Source: a virus. Taken from it: 20,577 bases of DNA. The translations under genes were made by a program, and so were the position numbers. Below, piece by piece: positions 707 through 15,210 of the stretch. The notes under the pieces were generated by a model, which worked only from the letters and a program-made list of their open reading frames with translations, made no database searches and was not told the DNA's origin. The stretch covers positions 1-20,577 of the IMG/VR virus record IMGVR_UViG_3300037011_000333. One strand, given 5' to 3'. Within the stretch, counting starts at the first letter, position 1. Every line of letters begins with the position of its first letter.

Positions 707-1755
707 TCGTTTAATATCCCTGTTATATATTTGACATCATCAATGCTCATTTTTGGATGCAATGGGAGATATAAATACTGCGATTCTAATCTATCCATGT
801 TAGGTAATTTCTGTCTGCCACCAAAGACTTTAAAGACGTCATTGCGGATCTGTACCAGATCACATTCAATACCATGCTCCCTGAGATATGTCATGGTTTC
901 ATCGCGGTAATCAGTAAGGATTGCCAATAACCAATAACTGCCACCACAAATCACATCTATATCTTGAGCATAAGTTTCGGCAAGTATCCTACGATATCCC
1001 AGAACTTCATCAGAATGTCTGAGCCCGACGATTCCCATAGTAGCAGCAATATCATTCATGTGGAATTTGTAACCGGCTTCCTCGATGTCCATCGTCATCT
1101 TGTGGTTATTGAGCCATTGCCAGTTTGCACGTTTCTTGGCTTCCCTATCAATACCGAACCAACGCAGTTTTTTCGCCCTTTGATAATCTTCCTCGTTTCT
1201 GAGGACTAACATCCCGCCATCGCCTGTTGTGAAATGCTTGATAGCCTGGAAGGAATAAGCAATAATGTCTCCATGTATTTCACTTACTCCAAGCGATTGA
1301 GCTGCATCTATGATGACTGGGATATTACTTTCTTTTGCTAAATCGAAAATCCTGGTATCAACAGGAATCCCGCCCAAAGTAACGACGACAATCGCCTTTG
1401 TATGTTTTGAAATTTTGGATTCAATATCGCGATAACTCACAGTTAAGTTATCGTTAATGTCTATAAACTTAATCTTTGCTTTGCGTCTTAATAGCGGGAT
1501 GGATGTCGCTGTACAAGAAAAGACTGGGGTAAGAACTTCATCACCTTCACCGATACCAACAAGATGATATGCTAATTCTAAGGCTGCCGTACCACTATTA
1601 ACAGCCAGACAGTATTTATAGCCGAACTTTTTTCCAAATTGCTTTTCAAATTCATCTACTAAGGGTCCTTGTCCTATCCAACGAGTATCAAATACCTTTG
1701 ATAATTCAGCTAACCACTCATCTTTATAGATGTTGGGATAGAATAAACTTATCAT
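685..1755 (-). CDS. DegT/DnrJ/EryC1/StrS-family PLP aminotransferase (sugar aminotransferase)
   Basis: A 356-aa member of the DegT/DnrJ/EryC1/StrS family, which makes amino sugars by PLP-dependent transamination of keto-sugar nucleotides, usually with glutamate as donor. Landmarks are the N-terminal GP-x-V-DEFEKQF segment, SGTAALELAYHL (residues 54-65), the PLP-nitrogen aspartate in IIDAAQSLGV (D150), and the Schiff-base lysine K173 in SFQAIKHFTTGDGGM. Length is near the family's usual 360-400 residues. The C-terminal domain seems slightly shortened. The start ATG 1755 overlaps the radical SAM stop by ATGA. No dehydratase or other keto-sugar-producing enzyme is in the window, so its substrate must come from the host or from genes further left. 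A role in perosamine-like or deoxyamino-sugar synthesis is an inference. Confidence 0.9.
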   Translation of the reverse strand: MISLFYPNIYKDEWLAELSKVFDTRWIGQGPLVDEFEKQFGKKFGYKYCLAVNSGTAALELAYHLVGIGEGDEVLTPVFSCTATSIPLLRRKAKIKFIDINDNLTVSYRDIESKISKHTKAIVVVTLGGIPVDTRIFDLAKESNIPVIIDAAQSLGVSEIHGDIIAYSFQAIKHFTTGDGGMLVLRNEEDYQRAKKLRWFGIDREAKKRANWQWLNNHKMTMDIEEAGYKFHMNDIAATMGIVGLRHSDEVLGYRRILAETYAQDIDVICGGSYWLLAILTDYRDETMTYLREHGIECDLVQIRNDVFKVFGGRQKLPNMDRLESQYLYLPLHPKMSIDDVKYITGILNECKSQLS

Positions 1756-2525
1756 ATATTACGATTGCACTCCCTGCATGGAATCATGCTAAAATCAAGT
1801 GCTCTATTCTTCTTCCTTAACCATTTAGACTCATTCCATATTTCTGTTAGAGTCTGCTTATTAGCATCCCCTAATATCAATTTTCCATCATAGTCCATAC
1901 AGCAGGGAACTACCCTGCCATCCCATAATATAGTCATAGCACCTAACAATGCTCTGCAAGGCTTCCTTACCCCATTCCTCTCAATATCACAGTGTCGTGA
2001 TCCACCCCAATTCTTAAATTCACTAAATCTTGCATTCTTCCCCCATAATTTTTTGAATTGTTTTACTTCATGCTGATTCTCATCTACAACTACCATTGAA
2101 ACGACGACATGAGAATTCGATTTTTTAATTAAATCCTCTACATTTGCTTTGACTGTTTCATAGTGTGGTCCTCGTGTGATCTTGTCGTAAGTTTCTTTTG
2201 TTGCTGCATTTACACTACAGCAAAATAAACCAATGTTAGGATATTTTATAAGTCGGTCAACATCTATAAGTTCAGCATTAGTGAAGATATGTACTACTAC
2301 TTCTTGAGATTTCAAATAATCTAACCACTGCCAAATCCTCGGGAAGACAAAGGGTTCACCATTTAAAAAGGGTATAAAGACTGAATCTTTAATCTCTTTC
2401 CCTTCTTTTATTATCTTGTAAAATAATTCATCACTCATTTCTCCCTTTGGTCGCGTCATATCATATCGTGGGCAGAAGGTACATTTGGCGTTACATGCGG
2501 TAGAACTCTCGAATTGAATTTTCAT
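1752..2525 (-). CDS. Radical SAM protein with SPASM-like C-terminal cysteines
   Basis: From ATG 2525 this is a 257-aa radical S-adenosylmethionine enzyme. The [4Fe-4S] motif C-x3-C-x2-C is at residues 11-18 (CNAKCTFC), followed by a GEMSDELFYKII segment and the NGEPFVFP element typical of the core barrel. The C-terminal part has further cysteines (VVPCCMDYDGKLILGD and IPCRECNRN), matching a SPASM/twitch auxiliary-cluster domain and the LGDANKQTLTEIWN segment that often accompanies it. The ATG overlaps the glycosyltransferase stop by ATGA, which fixes the start against an in-frame upstream TTG at 2534. SPASM proteins modify peptides or sugars. Given neighbours on both sides, a sugar substrate is likely but unproven. 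Confidence 0.9.
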   Translation of the reverse strand: MKIQFESSTACNAKCTFCPRYDMTRPKGEMSDELFYKIIKEGKEIKDSVFIPFLNGEPFVFPRIWQWLDYLKSQEVVVHIFTNAELIDVDRLIKYPNIGLFCCSVNAATKETYDKITRGPHYETVKANVEDLIKKSNSHVVVSMVVVDENQHEVKQFKKLWGKNARFSEFKNWGGSRHCDIERNGVRKPCRALLGAMTILWDGRVVPCCMDYDGKLILGDANKQTLTEIWNESKWLRKKNRALDFSMIPCRECNRNI

Positions 2526-3301
2526 AACCGCCAACGCGGTATTATTTCTTTTTCGTAATATTCACGCCAAACATCAAGTGCATATTTATAACCTTGCTCG
2601 CAATTCGCAGGGTTTTCTTTCGTGCCATTGTTATGAGTACGAGAAAAAGAACGATGCTTATGGGAAAACCACGTGTTTTTATTCACCATCAATTTCCCGC
2701 CAGCTTTCCAAGTCTTAAATACCATTTCGTGAGAATCCTGTATCAGAGGTCCATACCCTTCCGTCTGTAATTCCCCGATGACTTTATCCCACCACGTTCT
2801 ATGCATACACCACATTGAACCCTGCATAGCCATTGTTTCACTGATAGGTACGTCTTTCTGTTCTTCATCTCTACTTGCCCATCTCTGCCCGGCGAATTTT
2901 ACGCCACCTTGAATTACCAGTTTCTCATGTTCAACAGGGGGTTGGTCATCCATAACTTTCCACTGCACCGGATCAAGGAAATATCTCTTTGCAGTTACTA
3001 TCCAGTTTTCTTCGCATTGTAAGCTGAGAATAGTGTCATATCCATCGCCAAACATACAATGTTCATCAATACGCATTATATATTTACCCCTGGATACAAG
3101 AACTCCAGCATTGATAGCACCGCGCATTCCTCTGTTCTTACCGAGATGAACAATGCGGACTCTTTTATCGTCATTCAATTTGGTCCAGTATCCGTCAAGC
3201 ACGGCAATAACTTCTACTTCGCCCCTGGCATTGTTGAGCAATTCATCAATGGTTTTCTGCAAATAAATTGGATGATGTGATGGAATTATTGCTGATATCA
3301 T
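2522..3301 (-). CDS. GT-A glycosyltransferase (family 2/27-like, DXH motif)
   Basis: A 259-aa GT-A glycosyltransferase. The N-terminus has the family 2 pattern: IIPSHHPIYLQKTIDELL, then VIAVLDGYW around residues 31-38, RGMRGAINAGVLVSRGKYI, and the metal-binding site as IDEHC (D79-E80-H81). A D-x-H rather than D-x-D motif recalls polypeptide GalNAc-transferases. The later stretch (about residues 160-215: GSMWCMHRTWWDKV, then SHEMVFKTWKAGGKL and FSHKHR) also resembles the acceptor-side Gal/GalNAc-T motif of that group. The GT27-like reading is inference, because I cannot run an alignment. No signal peptide or membrane segment is seen, so it is cytoplasmic. It overlaps both neighbours by ATGA. 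It is the first gene of the glycan module, directly after the lysis genes. Confidence 0.85.
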   Translation of the reverse strand: MISAIIPSHHPIYLQKTIDELLNNARGEVEVIAVLDGYWTKLNDDKRVRIVHLGKNRGMRGAINAGVLVSRGKYIMRIDEHCMFGDGYDTILSLQCEENWIVTAKRYFLDPVQWKVMDDQPPVEHEKLVIQGGVKFAGQRWASRDEEQKDVPISETMAMQGSMWCMHRTWWDKVIGELQTEGYGPLIQDSHEMVFKTWKAGGKLMVNKNTWFSHKHRSFSRTHNNGTKENPANCEQGYKYALDVWREYYEKEIIPRWRL

Positions 3302-7613: not shown

Positions 7614-7689
7614 GCAACTGCCTGAAAGTGTTGATTTCATTGACATAGATTGTGTCACCATTCCTGTGACACTCAAAAGTGTCATTCAG
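7588..7689 (-). CDS. Short protein-like ORF without a standard start codon
   Basis: The frame read from CTG 7689 to TAA 7588 encodes 33 residues (LNDTFECHRNGDTIYVNEIN, then TFRQLLDKLKKTM) that look like a real strand-turn-strand-helix protein rather than noise. No ATG, GTG or TTG exists in this frame after an upstream TGA, so it needs a CTG start, a frameshift from the preceding gene, or it is a remnant. It overlaps the end of the preceding gene by four bases and finishes before the terminator. I do not recognise it. Confidence 0.3.
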   Translation of the reverse strand: MNDTFECHRNGDTIYVNEINTFRQLLDKLKKTM

Positions 7690-8057
7690 GTGAAAAGTCC
7701 GATTTCCTCAAAATATTTCTCGCATGATATTTTCATTTCATATCCCAAATCACAAAGATGTTGTCGGTGCTGTAATCGTCTGGGAATGGGATCGCCCTGC
7801 CGTATTCTTTTCGAGAAATACGTCGCAAGTTCTCCCCATGATTGATACTTACTACTACCCCTGCAAAACTGGACATGGAATATACACAACAAACAATCTT
7901 CAGGGATAGGAAAGCGGGTCTGCTGTTTTGGGTAATACCAACGTGCAAAGCGTTCTATCGTACCTATGAAAGCAAATTTTTCCTCCATTATGGATTGCTG
8001 CACTCTTGCGTTATTTGATTGTGAGGTGTTATCCCGCTTCGGCATAATCGTCGGCAT
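7686..8057 (-). CDS. Hypothetical Cys-containing protein (about 123 aa), start uncertain
   Basis: An ORF with likely start at ATG 8057 (MPTIMPKRDNTSQ...). ATG 8045 or ATG 7982 (MEEKFAFIG...) are also possible, and none has a clear ribosome binding site. The open frame extends further upstream but would overlap the HNH gene. The protein has aromatic and basic segments (FARWYYPKQQTRFPIPEDC) and several cysteines (CLLCIFHVQFC, LCDLGYEMKISC) that could bind metal. I recognise no family. It follows the HNH gene after a 61-base gap with no feature I can name. It is the last complete gene before the terminator. Confidence 0.5.
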   Translation of the reverse strand: MPTIMPKRDNTSQSNNARVQQSIMEEKFAFIGTIERFARWYYPKQQTRFPIPEDCLLCIFHVQFCRGSSKYQSWGELATYFSKRIRQGDPIPRRLQHRQHLCDLGYEMKISCEKYFEEIGLFT

Positions 8058-8118
8058 GCAGGTAACATTGGCTTTGAGATAATAATAATATCCCAGGATG
8101 TCACCTGAGCTAAGAAAT

Positions 8119-8442
8119 TTATCCCTGATTCCCCACCCCCATAGGCTGTAAACTTTCAATGTAGCGTTCAAGGCAACCCCTTCGAATCTCTCCAAAATCT
8201 GCCCAAAAATATTTCCGTTGAAAACTATGCCAGCCCATGCCAGGCGATTCACCTTCTTGATGATGAAGTCTACAAAGAGGAATACAGTTTAGATCTGACG
8301 GCTTCAAGCAAATTCCACCTTTGCCTTTTTCTTTGACATGGTGCGGATCGCTTGGCATTCTACCGCAAACGCAACAGGGTAGCGTCTTGATGAATCGCAT
8401 ATATTTAGAATTTCGGTAGGTCTGTGGTTTCCAGTTTGTCAA
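8119..8442 (-). CDS. HNH-type nuclease-like protein near terminase
   Basis: A 107-aa protein from TTG 8442, supported by AAGGAGG six bases upstream even though this start lies inside the preceding gene. The core shows CCVCGRMPSDPHHVKEKGKGG and then LNCIPLCRLHHQEG. These are two CxxC-like zinc ligand pairs with the HH of an HNH/betabetaalpha-metal site, and a GWHSFQRKYF element common in the DUF968-like phage HNH group. HNH proteins beside terminases in HK97-like phages stimulate terminase cleavage at cos sites (established for several phages). Its place directly after the large terminase and before the portal fits that role, though this is inferred here. Confidence 0.75.
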   Translation of the reverse strand: MTNWKPQTYRNSKYMRFIKTLPCCVCGRMPSDPHHVKEKGKGGICLKPSDLNCIPLCRLHHQEGESPGMGWHSFQRKYFWADFGEIRRGCLERYIESLQPMGVGNQG

Positions 8443-11765: not shown

Positions 11766-11919
11766 CACCTCCTTTCTGTATCAAACTGACCTTTCTTTTC
11801 CACTCTTGTTTTTGCTCCTGATTTCGTATTTCCCAAAACATTGCCTGCCAAATTATTGTCGCTACACCAAACCCGAGTGCGAAAAAAGAAAACGCATATG
11901 CGATTAAATCCAGACTCAT
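11758..11919 (-). CDS. Small single-TM protein (53 aa)
   Basis: A 53-aa ORF ([20 protein letters not shown]...) whose ATG overlaps the HU-like gene's stop as ATGA, so it is translationally coupled. Residues 4-26 form one membrane helix, followed by a charged Gln/Glu/Lys/Arg cytoplasmic tail ending QKGGDE. Function is unknown. The topology is like many small phage membrane peptides. Confidence 0.55.
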
Positions 11920-12173
11920 TTCTTTTTCGCTTCTTTGAATTTTAGGACCTGCTTCGCCGGGATAGAAATAACTTCGCCGGTCTGCGGATTCCTGCCTTGG
12001 CGTGCACTTAAGGTTACGACCTTGAATGTACCGATAGCTGTTCTGAGTGGTGCGTTCACTGTTATTTCCGGGATTGCATTGAATACACCCCTGGTGATTT
12101 CGCCCAACACCTTCTTGGGAATATTATCAAACTCTTTACTCACAACGTCCACAATGTCATCTACGTTAGCCAT
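11916..12173 (-). CDS. HU/IHF-family DNA-binding protein
   Basis: From ATG 12173, with AGGAAGGAGG about six bases upstream, this is an 85-aa HU/IHF-family protein. The C-terminal half shows the family's beta-arm region: [20 protein letters not shown], close to the HU signature GxFxV..R..R.GRNPxTGE. It continues [18 protein letters not shown], as in HU. The N-terminal helices ([20 protein letters not shown]) fit the dimerisation part, though they are less conserved than in host HU. HU bends and compacts DNA, and phage copies take part in replication, transcription or packaging. The length is normal (about 90 aa). Confidence 0.9.
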
Positions 12174-12912
12174 TCTTACCTCCTTCCTGTTCAATGATTG
12201 CTATTATCTTGGAATATACTGATACATCTCCAAGACGCTCCTGTATGCCCTCCGACTTTGTTTCAATCTTATTCGATTTTATCCAGAGATACGCGTCAAT
12301 TTGTTTCAACATATACACCAAGGCGATGCCTTCAGGCGATGACAGATCCAGCCCGGGATACTGTTGCAGAATCTTTGACACACGCAAAAAGTTACCGAGT
12401 GGATTACCACCGAACGCGTAATCAAAATTCTTTTTTGAATGAAGATCTGCTTCATTAACAATCCGTCTTGTAAATGAAGGATGACCATGAGGAAATTGAT
12501 GTCTTATCAAATATGCAATCGCCTCATTTTTCCATTCTATATTCTCGAAATATCCTAACATGCTGTTACATGGCTGGCAAAGAAGTCCCCTTATTTTTCC
12601 GGTTTCATGATCATGATCGACAGCTAAGTGACGCTGCATTTCTGATTTTTTACATAAAGCACATTTCCCTTCCTGTTGTATGTGTATCAGATTATATTCT
12701 TCATAAGATAATCCGTAGAGCCGCTTGATTTGATTTTTCCAAGCATTTTCTTTCATTTTTTGTTTCGTTTCTGGAATCTCGGCATATCTTTTTCGTTTTT
12801 TTTCGTTTAATTCGTTTCTTCGTTCTGCTACATACTGTTTATGCCAACATAATTTACATAACCCTTTCCCATAATGCGGACGGTCTGGATGACAAGTTGA
12901 TTTTTTAGCCAT
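12166..12912 (-). CDS. Endonuclease VII-type HNH protein fused to the rest of an interrupted all-alpha gene
   Basis: A 248-aa protein from ATG 12912 (GAGG nine bases upstream). Residues 7-23 form a small zinc motif ([19 protein letters not shown]). Residues 68-122 form an endonuclease VII-like HNH domain: CALC at 84-87, [17 protein letters not shown] (96-112) and CNSMLG. From residue 137 the sequence changes to [19 protein letters not shown], followed by [20 protein letters not shown] and a helical region to the end ([29 protein letters not shown]). That part resembles small phage NTPase-like all-alpha proteins (MazG/DUF6378-like, an inference from pattern only). The 5' part of the same all-alpha gene lies just upstream at 12905-12988. 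The ORF thus seems to be an HNH element inserted in that gene and reading through into a reconstituted copy of it. Confidence 0.85.
12448..12495 (-). repeat. 3' copy of the target-gene segment, re-encoded inside the HNH ORF
   Basis: The 48 bases encode [16 protein letters not shown]. They are the counterpart of 12917-12964, which encodes FPHGHPEFTKKLVEEA. Codons differ at most positions (for example CCA to CCT, GGA to GGT, CAC to CAT, TTC to TTT), while 10 of 16 residues are identical and most others are conservative. The pair is a protein-level rather than DNA-level repeat. Confidence 0.75.
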
Positions 12913-12988
12913 GTTTGGCTTCCTCAACAAGCTTCTTTGTGAATTCAGGGTGTCCATGTGGAAATGCTTTGCGAAGTTCGTCAATCAT
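12905..12988 (-). pseudogene. Truncated 5' fragment of the all-alpha gene interrupted by the HNH element
   Basis: ATG 12988 overlaps the preceding stop (ATGA), exactly like an ordinary operon gene start. It encodes 27 residues (MIDELRKAFPHGHPEFTKKL, then VEEAKHG) before TAA 12905. Residues 6-24 match [19 protein letters not shown] near the end of the HNH ORF. The natural continuation (DLHSKKN...) is now found only in the HNH fusion. Insertion appears to lie after codon 24. Confidence 0.75.
12917..12964 (-). repeat. 5' copy of the target-gene segment, in the truncated gene
   Basis: These 48 bases encode FPHGHPEFTKKLVEEA in the frame that starts at ATG 12988. This is the partner of the re-encoded copy at 12448-12495. 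The copies lie 469 bases apart, about the size of the HNH coding part between them. Confidence 0.75.
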
Positions 12989-13530
12989 GGATTCTCCAGT
13001 CCTTGTGAAGAATAAATAATTGCATCTTTTAACTTAATAACTGGTATGGCATAAAACGATGCTCTACCATGTGTTTCATTGATTTTTAAAATACCTATTT
13101 TACCTAAGCCGCCCGCTTTTTCAACAAGCAACTTATATCTTAAAATATCTAACATAATCCACTTTTCAAAATCTGTATTGTCCTTATTAGCCCAACCATA
13201 GAAATAAAGCTGTGCAGCCAATTTGAACCATTCTCCAACGGATTCGTATTCAGTACCAACTGCATTGTTATATTCCTGAGTGAAATCCGAATATTGAATA
13301 TATTTATTTTCCCTGTATTTTTCTTGAAGAGTAATAAAATTTCCGGATGGAAATTGTATAAGGGAATCAATAGCAAATTCTTTATCAAGAATATGAACCC
13401 CTTTTCCTTTTGTTCTTAAATCTTCGATTTCACAATTAGGGAATATTGCTTTATAAATACGAATTGCACTTACCCTCATTTGTCGCTGGAATTGTACAGT
13501 TCTAAGCTCATTAAATTCATTCCTTGCCAT
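12985..13530 (-). CDS. Possible PD-(D/E)XK nuclease (restriction-like), overlapping methyltransferase
   Basis: A 181-aa protein starting at ATG 13530, 14 bases inside the methyltransferase gene. Residues 45-80 read GVHILDKEFAIDSLIQFPSG, then NFITLQEKYRENKY. An acidic residue in a strand (AID), followed some 15 residues later by a strand with Q-E-K, is the D...(D/E)xK layout of PD-(D/E)XK nucleases. This is a motif-level inference, not a family recognition. The rest has helices and strands with no other signature. Direct overlap with a DNA methyltransferase makes a restriction-modification pair possible. A host-DNA-degrading nuclease or an unrelated protein is also possible. Confidence 0.6.
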   Translation of the reverse strand: MARNEFNELRTVQFQRQMRVSAIRIYKAIFPNCEIEDLRTKGKGVHILDKEFAIDSLIQFPSGNFITLQEKYRENKYIQYSDFTQEYNNAVGTEYESVGEWFKLAAQLYFYGWANKDNTDFEKWIMLDILRYKLLVEKAGGLGKIGILKINETHGRASFYAIPVIKLKDAIIYSSQGLENP

Positions 13531-14836
13531 ACAGATTCAATCTCCCCTTCGCTATTTTTATATATTCCTTGCTAATTTCTATCCCGTGGAAACGTCTCCC
13601 CATCTGACAAGCAGCTACTCCCGTTGTGCCTGAGCCTACAAATGGGTCAACTACCATTTCTCCTTTTTGGGTAGTAGCATTAATAAGCCACCGCATTACA
13701 GATAATGGTTTTTGAGCAGGATGTTGTTTCATATCCACTCCATTGAAATTCGTCTGTGGCACTGCCGCTACATGACAATCAAAATCCGTGAGTTCTTTCC
13801 CCCATTCGTGTCCTTCTATTTTTATCTTTTTCTCGGAATCCTTACGGCGATAAAAAAATATGGGCTCCCATGTTTGTTTGAATCCTTTACGACTTTGAGG
13901 ACTCTTATTGTTCGGATAATGCCAGACGAGTAATTGTTGAAAGCTATAGTTGGAAAGAAATTTGTCAAACCATTGTTTCCCTTGAAATAGATATCGTTGA
14001 CTCCAAAAAATTAAAAAGAAATCTGCCCCACACTCATTCCATTTGTCTAACCAATTGCAAGTAAACTTTTCGAGTTTGTCTGGCTCCCATGTCTCTTTCA
14101 GAATCCCATAGGGTGGATCTGTAATAACTGCATTGCATGGTATCATTGTTTCATCGCTTGTAACCATCCATTGATCTGTCAATGGCGCCTGTTTTGCCGC
14201 CTCAGCTACCTTCTTTTTGTTGCTATCCTTACGCATATCTCGCTTGACCTGCGATATCGTTTTCTTTCCACTCGTAATATCAGCTATCTTTTCCGGTGCA
14301 GTTTCCTTAATCTTCTTGACATCCGAAACATACTGCTTGTTTGTGCCGACTACCTTTGCAGCTTGGTCATCAGACTTTAGCATCGGTTGTCCAATTTTTT
14401 GGATAAGCGATTTTTTTGTCTTACCTGTGGTAGAAACCGCAACATCTTGTGGTTGGTCTGCTTTTTTGGCTTTTTCGCTCTTTTTGTCTCCTCCTGCCAG
14501 CCTCTGCCTTTCCTTTGCCTCTTGTGCCAGCATCGGCTCTATCTCCATTGCTATGACTGCCTTCTGACTGCTGTTGAGGTGTCTGCGATGCAGATTCATG
14601 GAAATAACAAACATAACCAGCGATCCTTTTCCGTCCCATGTCTCAAATTTTGGCTGGATGCCGAGTTCCAGGCAGGCTTTATAACGATTGCGTCCATCAA
14701 GGATTCGACCATCAGAATGCAAACAGATCGGTTGTAATAATCCAATAGAAGCTATGTCATCTTTGAATATTTTATATTCATTGTCATCCATGAGAGGGAA
14801 TATTTCACTGACAGGATGAATTTTTAACTCACTCAT
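13517..14836 (-). CDS. ParB-domain/DNA methyltransferase fusion (N6-adenine or N4-cytosine type)
   Basis: A 439-aa fusion from ATG 14836, chosen over ATG 14848 because GGAGG lies five bases upstream. Residues 1-60 form a ParB/Srx-type N-terminal domain (SEIFPLMDDNEYKIFKDDIA, then SDGRILDGRNRYKAC). A Lys-rich linker follows, with a helix-turn-helix-like GTNKQYVSDVKKIKE (164-178). The C-terminal methyltransferase has motif IV TDPPYGI (239-245) before motif I VVDPFVGSGTTGVAACQ (395-411), the order of the beta class. DPPY favours N6-adenine. Fusions of this kind occur widely in phages as solitary methylases that protect DNA or alter regulation. An overlapping nuclease-like gene follows. Confidence 0.9.
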   Translation of the reverse strand: MSELKIHPVSEIFPLMDDNEYKIFKDDIASIGLLQPICLHSDGRILDGRNRYKACLELGIQPKFETWDGKGSLVMFVISMNLHRRHLNSSQKAVIAMEIEPMLAQEAKERQRLAGGDKKSEKAKKADQPQDVAVSTTGKTKKSLIQKIGQPMLKSDDQAAKVVGTNKQYVSDVKKIKETAPEKIADITSGKKTISQVKRDMRKDSNKKKVAEAAKQAPLTDQWMVTSDETMIPCNAVITDPPYGILKETWEPDKLEKFTCNWLDKWNECGADFFLIFWSQRYLFQGKQWFDKFLSNYSFQQLLVWHYPNNKSPQSRKGFKQTWEPIFFYRRKDSEKKIKIEGHEWGKELTDFDCHVAAVPQTNFNGVDMKQHPAQKPLSVMRWLINATTQKGEMVVDPFVGSGTTGVAACQMGRRFHGIEISKEYIKIAKGRLNLYGKE

Positions 14837-14847
14837 TTGTGCCTCCA

Positions 14848-15210
14848 TCAGAATGGATCCAGTTCCCCGGTTTCCTCAGCCGGCTGTTCTTCCCCGCCAT
14901 TTTTCTTCTTCCCCACAAACTTTATTTCCTCAGCGACAACCACTGTCTTGCTCCTTTTCTGTCCATCGGATTCCCATGTCTCTGTTTTCAATCTGCCACG
15001 ACAAAGCATTTGCGACCCCTTGCTGAGATATTTCCCGGCATTCTCCGCCAGCTTCCCCCAAGCGGTTATTTCGGCAAAGAATGTTTCTTCGGTATCTTTG
15101 TACTTCCTGTTTGTCGCAACTCCAATCTTTGCAACGGCAGTACCGGAAGACGTGTATTTAAGATCCGGATCCCTTGTTAAATTCCCTAATATTACTACAC
15201 TATTAAACAT
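14848..15210 (-). CDS. ssb: Single-stranded DNA-binding protein
   Basis: A 120-aa SSB from ATG 15210 (GGAG five bases upstream; an in-frame GTG two codons earlier is less likely). The OB fold is clear: MFNSVVILGNLTRDPDLKYT, SSGTAVAKIGVATNRKYKD, FFAEITAWGKLAENAGKYLS, KGSQMLCRGRLKTETWE. A short acidic tail ends in ELDPF, a shortened form of the DDDIPF tip that binds replication and repair partners. It is much shorter than bacterial SSB (about 175 aa) because the linker is nearly absent, as in many phages. It overlaps the RusA gene end by 16 bases. Confidence 0.96.
   Translation of the reverse strand: MFNSVVILGNLTRDPDLKYTSSGTAVAKIGVATNRKYKDTEETFFAEITAWGKLAENAGKYLSKGSQMLCRGRLKTETWESDGQKRSKTVVVAEEIKFVGKKKNGGEEQPAEETGELDPF

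Follow-up and report, generated by a model that had tools for sequence, protein, structure and literature searches.

A candidate homing-type HNH gene joined in frame to a diverged copy of the 5′ segment of a small phage gene

On the minus strand of the window analysed here (a complete virus record of 20,577 bases), a small conserved phage gene ends after 27 codons, and an endonuclease VII-type HNH gene that begins within this fragment runs on into a second, diverged copy of codons 9–24 of the small gene and from there into the remainder of it. The explanation that we favour, and to which we would give roughly an even chance, is that of a homing-type, free-standing endonuclease VII/HNH gene that carries a substitute for the 5′ end of its target.

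RESULTS

Organization of the locus

The start of the small gene, ATG 12988, overlaps the stop of the upstream 181-aa gene (ending at 12985) as ATGA, and the stop of the gene itself falls at 12905; both the coupling and the early termination had been proposed in the initial annotation and are borne out by the ORF reading. The HNH start, ATG 12912, lies inside the 27-codon fragment in the +1 frame; after residue 139, its ORF passes through copy 2 of the duplicated segment and then DLHSKKN... in one open frame to 12166, again as first annotated. The features of the locus are as follows.

12985–13530, minus strand: upstream gene, 181 aa, with ATGA overlap with ATG 12988 (ORF reading)
12994–12997, minus strand: GGAG, Shine–Dalgarno-like, 5 bases before ATG 12988 (read from the sequence)
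12905–12988, minus strand: 5′ remnant of the interrupted gene, 27 codons (ORF reading)
12917–12964, minus strand: copy 1 of the duplicated segment, regarded as native, with the sequence FPHGHPEFTKKLVEEA (segment comparison)
12922–12925, minus strand: GAGG, Shine–Dalgarno-like, 9 bases before HNH ATG 12912 (read from the sequence)
12448–12916, minus strand: 469-base insert, taken from the end of one copy to the end of the other; its actual ends may fall at any point within the duplicated segment
12166–12912, minus strand: fused ORF, 248 aa, consisting of the HNH domain, copy 2 and the rest of the interrupted gene (ORF reading)
12496–12912, minus strand: complete endonuclease VII-type HNH gene body, codons 1–139 (PF02945, phrog_2914, invariant residues and the ends of relatives)
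12508–12510, minus strand: TTG, a speculative candidate for a weak internal start of an unfused product, with GAGG 11 bases upstream (read from the sequence)
12448–12495, minus strand: copy 2 of the duplicated segment, joined to the HNH C-terminus without a linker (segment comparison and profile scores)
12166–12447, minus strand: rest of the interrupted gene, including its stop (family alignment; predicted four-helix fold together with copy 2, model pLDDT 91.3)
11916–12173, minus strand: downstream gene for an HU-like DNA-binding protein (PF00216, E = 3.7e-12; the Pfam row is given as 11916–12167)

The GAGG at 12922–12925 is formed by the Glu-Glu codons of copy 1 and is missing from copy 2; from its position, it may well be used as the ribosome site of the HNH gene. 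At the other end of the locus, the start of the HU-like gene overlaps the stop of the fused ORF by the string ATGGCTAA, which is found again at the overlap between the fragment and the HNH gene.

The duplicated segment

The ungapped comparison of 12964–12917 with 12495–12448 gives a score of 77 for LRKAFPHGHPEFTKKLVEEA, and the duplication exceeds chance. The same test applied to 86 other HNH ORFs gave a maximum of 55, and the median of all 89 rows, which include three of this locus, was 29 (one of the 90 HNH ORFs was dropped for its short flanks, and the controls are not all distinct, there being 63 sequences among 87). The two highest controls, L115 (55, a GC-rich pair) and L102 (53), were judged from their peptides to be of low complexity. 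When a second copy of their own 5′ segment was sought in 28 uninterrupted loci of the target family, the highest score was 35, and a search within the window's own genome returned the fragment as its second match (18.2 bits, E = 1.1e-5).

Against a family profile built without the window, the fragment plus the tail of the gene scores 160.0 bits, copy 2 plus the tail 155.2 bits and the tail alone 135.6 bits; hence, removal of the 469-base insert leaves a family-typical protein. The first 24 codons of the remnant score 12.9 bits by themselves. On these scores, the fragment is the true 5′ end of the gene and copy 2 makes up for its loss. The earlier proposal that the HNH ORF restores its target as a fusion is, therefore, supported, as an N-terminal HNH domain is followed by a second copy of the lost segment.

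Two weak duplications were seen near other HNH genes. That in L101 is out of frame with its gene, and in L054, a short motif at the C-terminus of the helicase, YDQKTGRMVEM, is found again as YDMNTGRMIEV towards the end of a small ORF that follows the first HNH gene. The L054 region (1745–3288) holds two different endonuclease VII-type HNH genes, located after a helicase-like gene (by eye) and before a DNA polymerase gene.

The nuclease domain

PF02945 (Endonuclease_7) matches residues 61–135 of the fused protein (E = 2.2e-22; 79.2 bits versus a cut-off of 23.6), and phrog_2914, annotated as endonuclease VII, matches residues 5–142 (E = 3.1e-30). The four cysteines (Cys84/Cys87 and Cys112/Cys115), the VDHDH motif at 98–102 and Asn116 are all present, and they are invariant in an alignment of 16 sequences, comprising the window and 15 HNH relatives taken from the 80 that were retained (the best 80 of 210); consequently, the nuclease looks intact. 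The position at which free-standing HNH relatives terminate was compared for 24 of these best 80: 18 end no more than two residues away from the join, six of these exactly at the join residue, for example with IEYLNAHQ in L050 and IKYLKRYQ in L064, and the other six extend from 5 to about 22 residues past it. In a model of the fused protein built from HNH relatives alone, most of the HNH part has good confidence, and its last helix spans residues 125–139. Residues 141–169 are of low confidence in the same model, and those beyond are middling.

The HNH ORF qualifies as free-standing, that is to say, outside an intron or intein. P0001 has no match to intein families in Pfam or NCBIfam, and Rfam has no match in the window at gathering scores; with E values up to 10 allowed across 12300–13100, the sole Rfam match is a snoRNA (E = 8.9), far under its gathering score. 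Endonuclease VII-type HNH proteins may also be resolvases or domesticated.

Three long phage matches of P0001, in Phab24, Pan2 and Chop, were considered as fused homologues and rejected, because the part of the match beyond the HNH domain is crossed by stop codons in Phab24 and Pan2 and was lost on re-alignment in Chop. One HNH ORF outside the window, in Gordonia phage Chop (L004), has a long C-terminal extension. A mixed alignment, A3, was dropped, the HNH domain having been misaligned onto the target domain.

The interrupted gene and its family

The interrupted gene belongs to a family of small conserved phage proteins of about 110–130 aa, the alignments of which give the form GHPxF(9)LHSxKNxDYAxGGxPLGNFxRV. 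A first motif pattern gave 15 loci, 14 of which are family members; with further scans, the family totals 30 viral contigs, of which 28 differ from one another within the final 100 residues of the ORF. In 28 of the 30 family contigs, a single frame spans the interruption site, the other two, L040 and L044, being those without a motif match. An endonuclease VII gene of this HNH type was detectable in none of the 30 within the contig DNA examined. Uninterrupted homologues, which the initial annotation had suggested should be sought and compared with both copies, thus exist in number, and the opposing picture that it had raised, with all relatives carrying the fused HNH domain, does not hold.

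The family alignments comprise 11 of the 14 members from the first pattern, including the incomplete L009 (A1), and 23 of 25 relatives, with L033 and L040 left out (A2). A viral scan with FPHGHPxF returned 11 loci with nine new identifiers and no HNH match; the domain was present in one of the nine, L166, which is a contig already known as L043. In scans of genome contigs, none of 41 stretches was confirmed in the first, and none of the 25 loci in the second (17 of them from Neisseria) had the domain. No near relative of the phage itself was found by the queries used: scanning viral contigs one protein at a time, for P0002, for the 181-aa protein and for the terminase, returned no relatives, and annotated phages gave no match for P0002 at E up to 1, nor for the terminase.

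No Pfam or PHROG family covers the target family confidently (24 members searched): DUF6378 reaches a best E of 0.036 and phrog_1485 a best E of 0.0014, each in three of the 24. A Nmad1/DUF6378-like identity for the target is not supported, no profile match being above its cut-off. With the predicted four-helix fold, the best Foldseek match is a phage protein named nucleotide-modification-associated (Nmad1; E = 0.12, TM 0.45), and a DUF6378 protein is matched with a TM of 0.61 but an E of 0.76; a PDB fold search gave nothing below E = 2.8, and PDB sequence searches gave nothing. As these fold matches are weak, they offer no more than a lead towards a role in phage nucleotide metabolism. The join falls within predicted helix 1 (model residues 7–28), with the break after residue 17, and the target domain would, therefore, probably be broken if it lacked copy 2. 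One family member, L020:7641–8222 (minus strand), has an N-terminal extension that by eye is zinc-ribbon-like, so other N-terminal fusions of the target domain may exist.

Divergence of the two copies

The two segments had initially been described as encoding almost identical peptides through mostly different codons, and this had been taken for purposeful recoding. Neither the description nor its interpretation is borne out. The segments are identical at 34 of 48 bases and 11 of 16 residues, and of the 16 codons, six are identical, five are synonymous and five change the amino acid; half of the 10 differing codons, therefore, alter the residue. Identical codons at six of the 11 shared residues compare with 4.4 expected from the codon usage of the phage, and among family members, codons are shared at 41% of identical residues (300 pairs; the motif is matched in 28 of the 30 contigs, which give 25 distinct segments). 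There is, thus, no sign of special recoding, and judged by its codons, copy 2 is an ordinary diverged allele.

The nearest family member to copy 1 shares 10 of 16 residues and 30 of 48 bases with it, and that to copy 2 shares nine of 16 and 27 of 48. Since each copy resembles the other more than it does any of the family members found, copy 2 would come from the same lineage or a near one, and their kinship appears to suit duplication within one lineage at least as well as import. The searches found no donor of copy 2, no empty allele in the same phage and no second example, and the locus is represented by one record only.

Within the fused ORF, the third-position G+C content steps from 0.256 (HNH domain, copy 2 and DLHSKKNFD) to 0.476 (the rest) at about 12420, inside the stretch that encodes the conserved motif (permutation p = 0.014). 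This step would fit a crossover in the conserved motif, with copy 2 arriving together with the HNH gene; it carries little weight, as third positions are AT-rich in the upstream 181-aa gene as well (0.229; 0.37 for the fragment).

Neighbouring genes

The region 13517–14848 encodes a ParB-like part (phrog_12047) and an N6/N4 DNA methyltransferase (PF01555) in one protein. Profile searches found no family for the 181-aa protein of the AT-rich gene 12985–13530; it contains a D...ExK-like stretch, AIDSLIQFPSGNFITLQEK, that by eye resembles a PD-(D/E)XK nuclease, and the two proteins are perhaps a methylase–nuclease pair. At the contig end, 413–3301 holds genes for a GNAT acetyltransferase, a DegT/DnrJ/EryC1 aminotransferase, a radical SAM/SPASM protein and a family 2 glycosyltransferase, a run that suggests sugar or surface modification. 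Downstream of the terminase, two ORFs in different frames overlap, one of them DUF968/HNH-like and the other of 188 aa (8119–8442 and 7686–8252).

DISCUSSION

A proposed homing-type element with a replacement 5′ end

The preferred reading supposes that an HNH gene settled within the 5′ part of the small gene, and that its C-terminus bears a diverged copy of the displaced part, either brought along or gained, such that the target survives as an HNH–target fusion. The native first 24 codons would stay upstream, where they would hold the operon start signals and give the HNH gene both a ribosome site and coupling. The nuclease would cut uninterrupted alleles of co-infecting phages near the EEA-DLH segment, and repair would transfer the HNH gene and the diverged 5′ segment together; the product allele is proposed to escape cutting because its site is interrupted and its copy differs. 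The expected product is the HNH–target fusion, and initiation at the weak TTG inside the ORF, at 12510, could yield an unfused target.

A more far-reaching interpretation, which we hold as possible rather than probable, is that the locus represents a phage element that swaps the 5′ end of a gene for the nuclease domain of the element followed by a diverged copy that resists cleavage, without splitting or splicing the gene. As part of the same idea, and just as tentatively, it may be a natural cleave-and-rescue system in which the nuclease and the rescued target are one protein; loss of the nuclease frame would then be loss of the host gene.

Alternative explanations

That the two copies are each other's nearest relatives would also be expected if the gene had been duplicated in tandem with the HNH gene between the copies, and if the middle of the first gene copy and the HNH stop had then been lost, the latter loss giving the fusion. 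In such a history, the end of the fragment (KHG and the stop), which overlaps the next start as ATGGCTAA, would be the old 3′ end of the first gene copy. Indeed, the fragment ends in ...AAACATGGCTAA and the fused ORF in ...AAGAATGGCTAA, both overlapping the next ATG alike; the ATGGCTAA start is shared with just one of 842 other ATG sites in the window, the stop/start overlap occurring at 12912–12905 and 12173–12166 and at no other ATG tested. However, outside this 8-mer, the two start contexts agree at 16 of 35 bases, which places them at rank 43 of the 842 ATG sites, and starts of the form Met-Ala-Lys/Asn are common, which we count against this history. Moreover, it requires two deletions. 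The family shows one domain match per locus, albeit by a domain search that would miss short fragments, the window's own fragment being absent from its matches, and the separate comparison of 5′ segments gave no second one in the 28 testable loci. We consider a deleted tandem copy to be unlikely.

We are similarly sceptical of an accidental fusion without homing, in which illegitimate recombination would have created a two-domain protein that was kept or tolerated. The HNH and target parts do share one open frame, and other N-terminal extensions of the target domain seem, by eye, to be tolerated, as in L020. Nevertheless, such an event leaves unexplained both a remnant that ends just at the HNH start with the ribosome site kept and an HNH gene that is complete to the end point of its relatives.

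An assembly chimera is decidedly improbable. The window is a single virus record, perhaps a metagenome contig, in which reads from two phages could have been joined via a shared HNH sequence, the HNH gene following a split gene in the first phage and standing next to a divergent gene in the second. However, the frames are open, and no direct repeat of at least 14 bases in the window touches the locus. Exact words of at least 8 bases shared by the two copies are absent from the compared stretches, which makes a chimera joined at the duplicated segment unlikely; one joined through the HNH sequence is less easily dismissed. Finally, an intron, an intein or a ribosomal bypass, by which the 469 bases would be removed or skipped and the fragment and tail joined, can be given hardly any credence: its clean removal would yield the family-typical protein, but Rfam offers no match at gathering scores, the HNH frame fills the insert and the second copy would be superfluous.

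Comparison with known systems

The initial annotation could not place a free-standing HNH ORF that restores its target in this manner, which was too strong a statement, as the accounts drawn on here describe precedents in fungal mitochondria (PMC3630166) and, unfused, in yeast (PMC7282813). According to the excerpted account of the former, mORFs in Glomus atp6, atp9, cox2 and nad3 and in Allomyces atp6 carry duplicated C-termini, the native end being left as a remnant; the Glomus atp6 copies have 63.5% nucleotide and 91% amino-acid identity, and in Glomus atp6 and nad3, the mORF and the replacement are both in phase with the gene, so that a frame joining nuclease and target is already known (PMC3630166). 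The phage locus resembles the mORFs in that an endonuclease ORF sits within a gene and is accompanied by a diverged substitute for the part displaced. It differs in that the mORFs described there replace the 3′ end and encode LAGLIDADG or GIY-YIG nucleases (PMC3630166), whereas in the phage the 5′ end is concerned and the nuclease is of the endonuclease VII/HNH type, precedes the restored gene and forms its N-terminus.

The WHO elements of Torulaspora and Lachancea likewise combine an endonuclease gene with a diverged piece of the target, the displaced piece lying beside it, and the available account attributes resistance to allelic differences and reports experimental evidence of cutting (PMC7282813). 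In these elements, as described, the 3′ end of FBA1 is replaced, and the endonuclease is separately transcribed and unfused (PMC7282813), whereas the phage locus is fused and has its 5′ end copied. With the mORF and WHO elements, then, the phage locus shares a second, diverged copy of a target segment beside a nuclease gene, here in phase; the replaced part is not the 3′ end, the duplicated segment (codons 9–24 of the target) being at the 5′ end.

Insertion of an HNH gene into a conserved gene is also familiar from T4-type phages (PMC2988022). In the parts of these sources that we draw on, mobE splits nrdA in Aeh1 and mobA splits T4 39/60 (PMC2988022, PMC3014915), protection against cleavage is the role proposed for the insert of T4 gene 60 (PMC5009743) and several T4 HNH homing genes overlap the preceding coding sequence (PMC2988022). 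The split genes are left as two polypeptides, and the same excerpts mention no replacement copy or fusion (PMC2988022, PMC3014915). No phage case of the present kind was among the literature matches listed, which cover open-licence papers only. By analogy, the phage locus is best read as the logic of the mORF and WHO elements at work in a phage, at the 5′ end and with the nuclease as the N-terminus.

Implications

If this reading is correct, homing in which an element carries its own replacement for the displaced part, as in fungal mitochondria and yeast nuclei, would also occur in phages, and the phage version would be a mirror image, acting at the 5′ end with the nuclease as the N-terminus. 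A nuclease gene could then live in a useful gene without an intron or intein, the fusion guarding it against loss. The arrangement has a searchable signature, in which the C-terminus of an HNH ORF repeats the end of the preceding ORF fragment.
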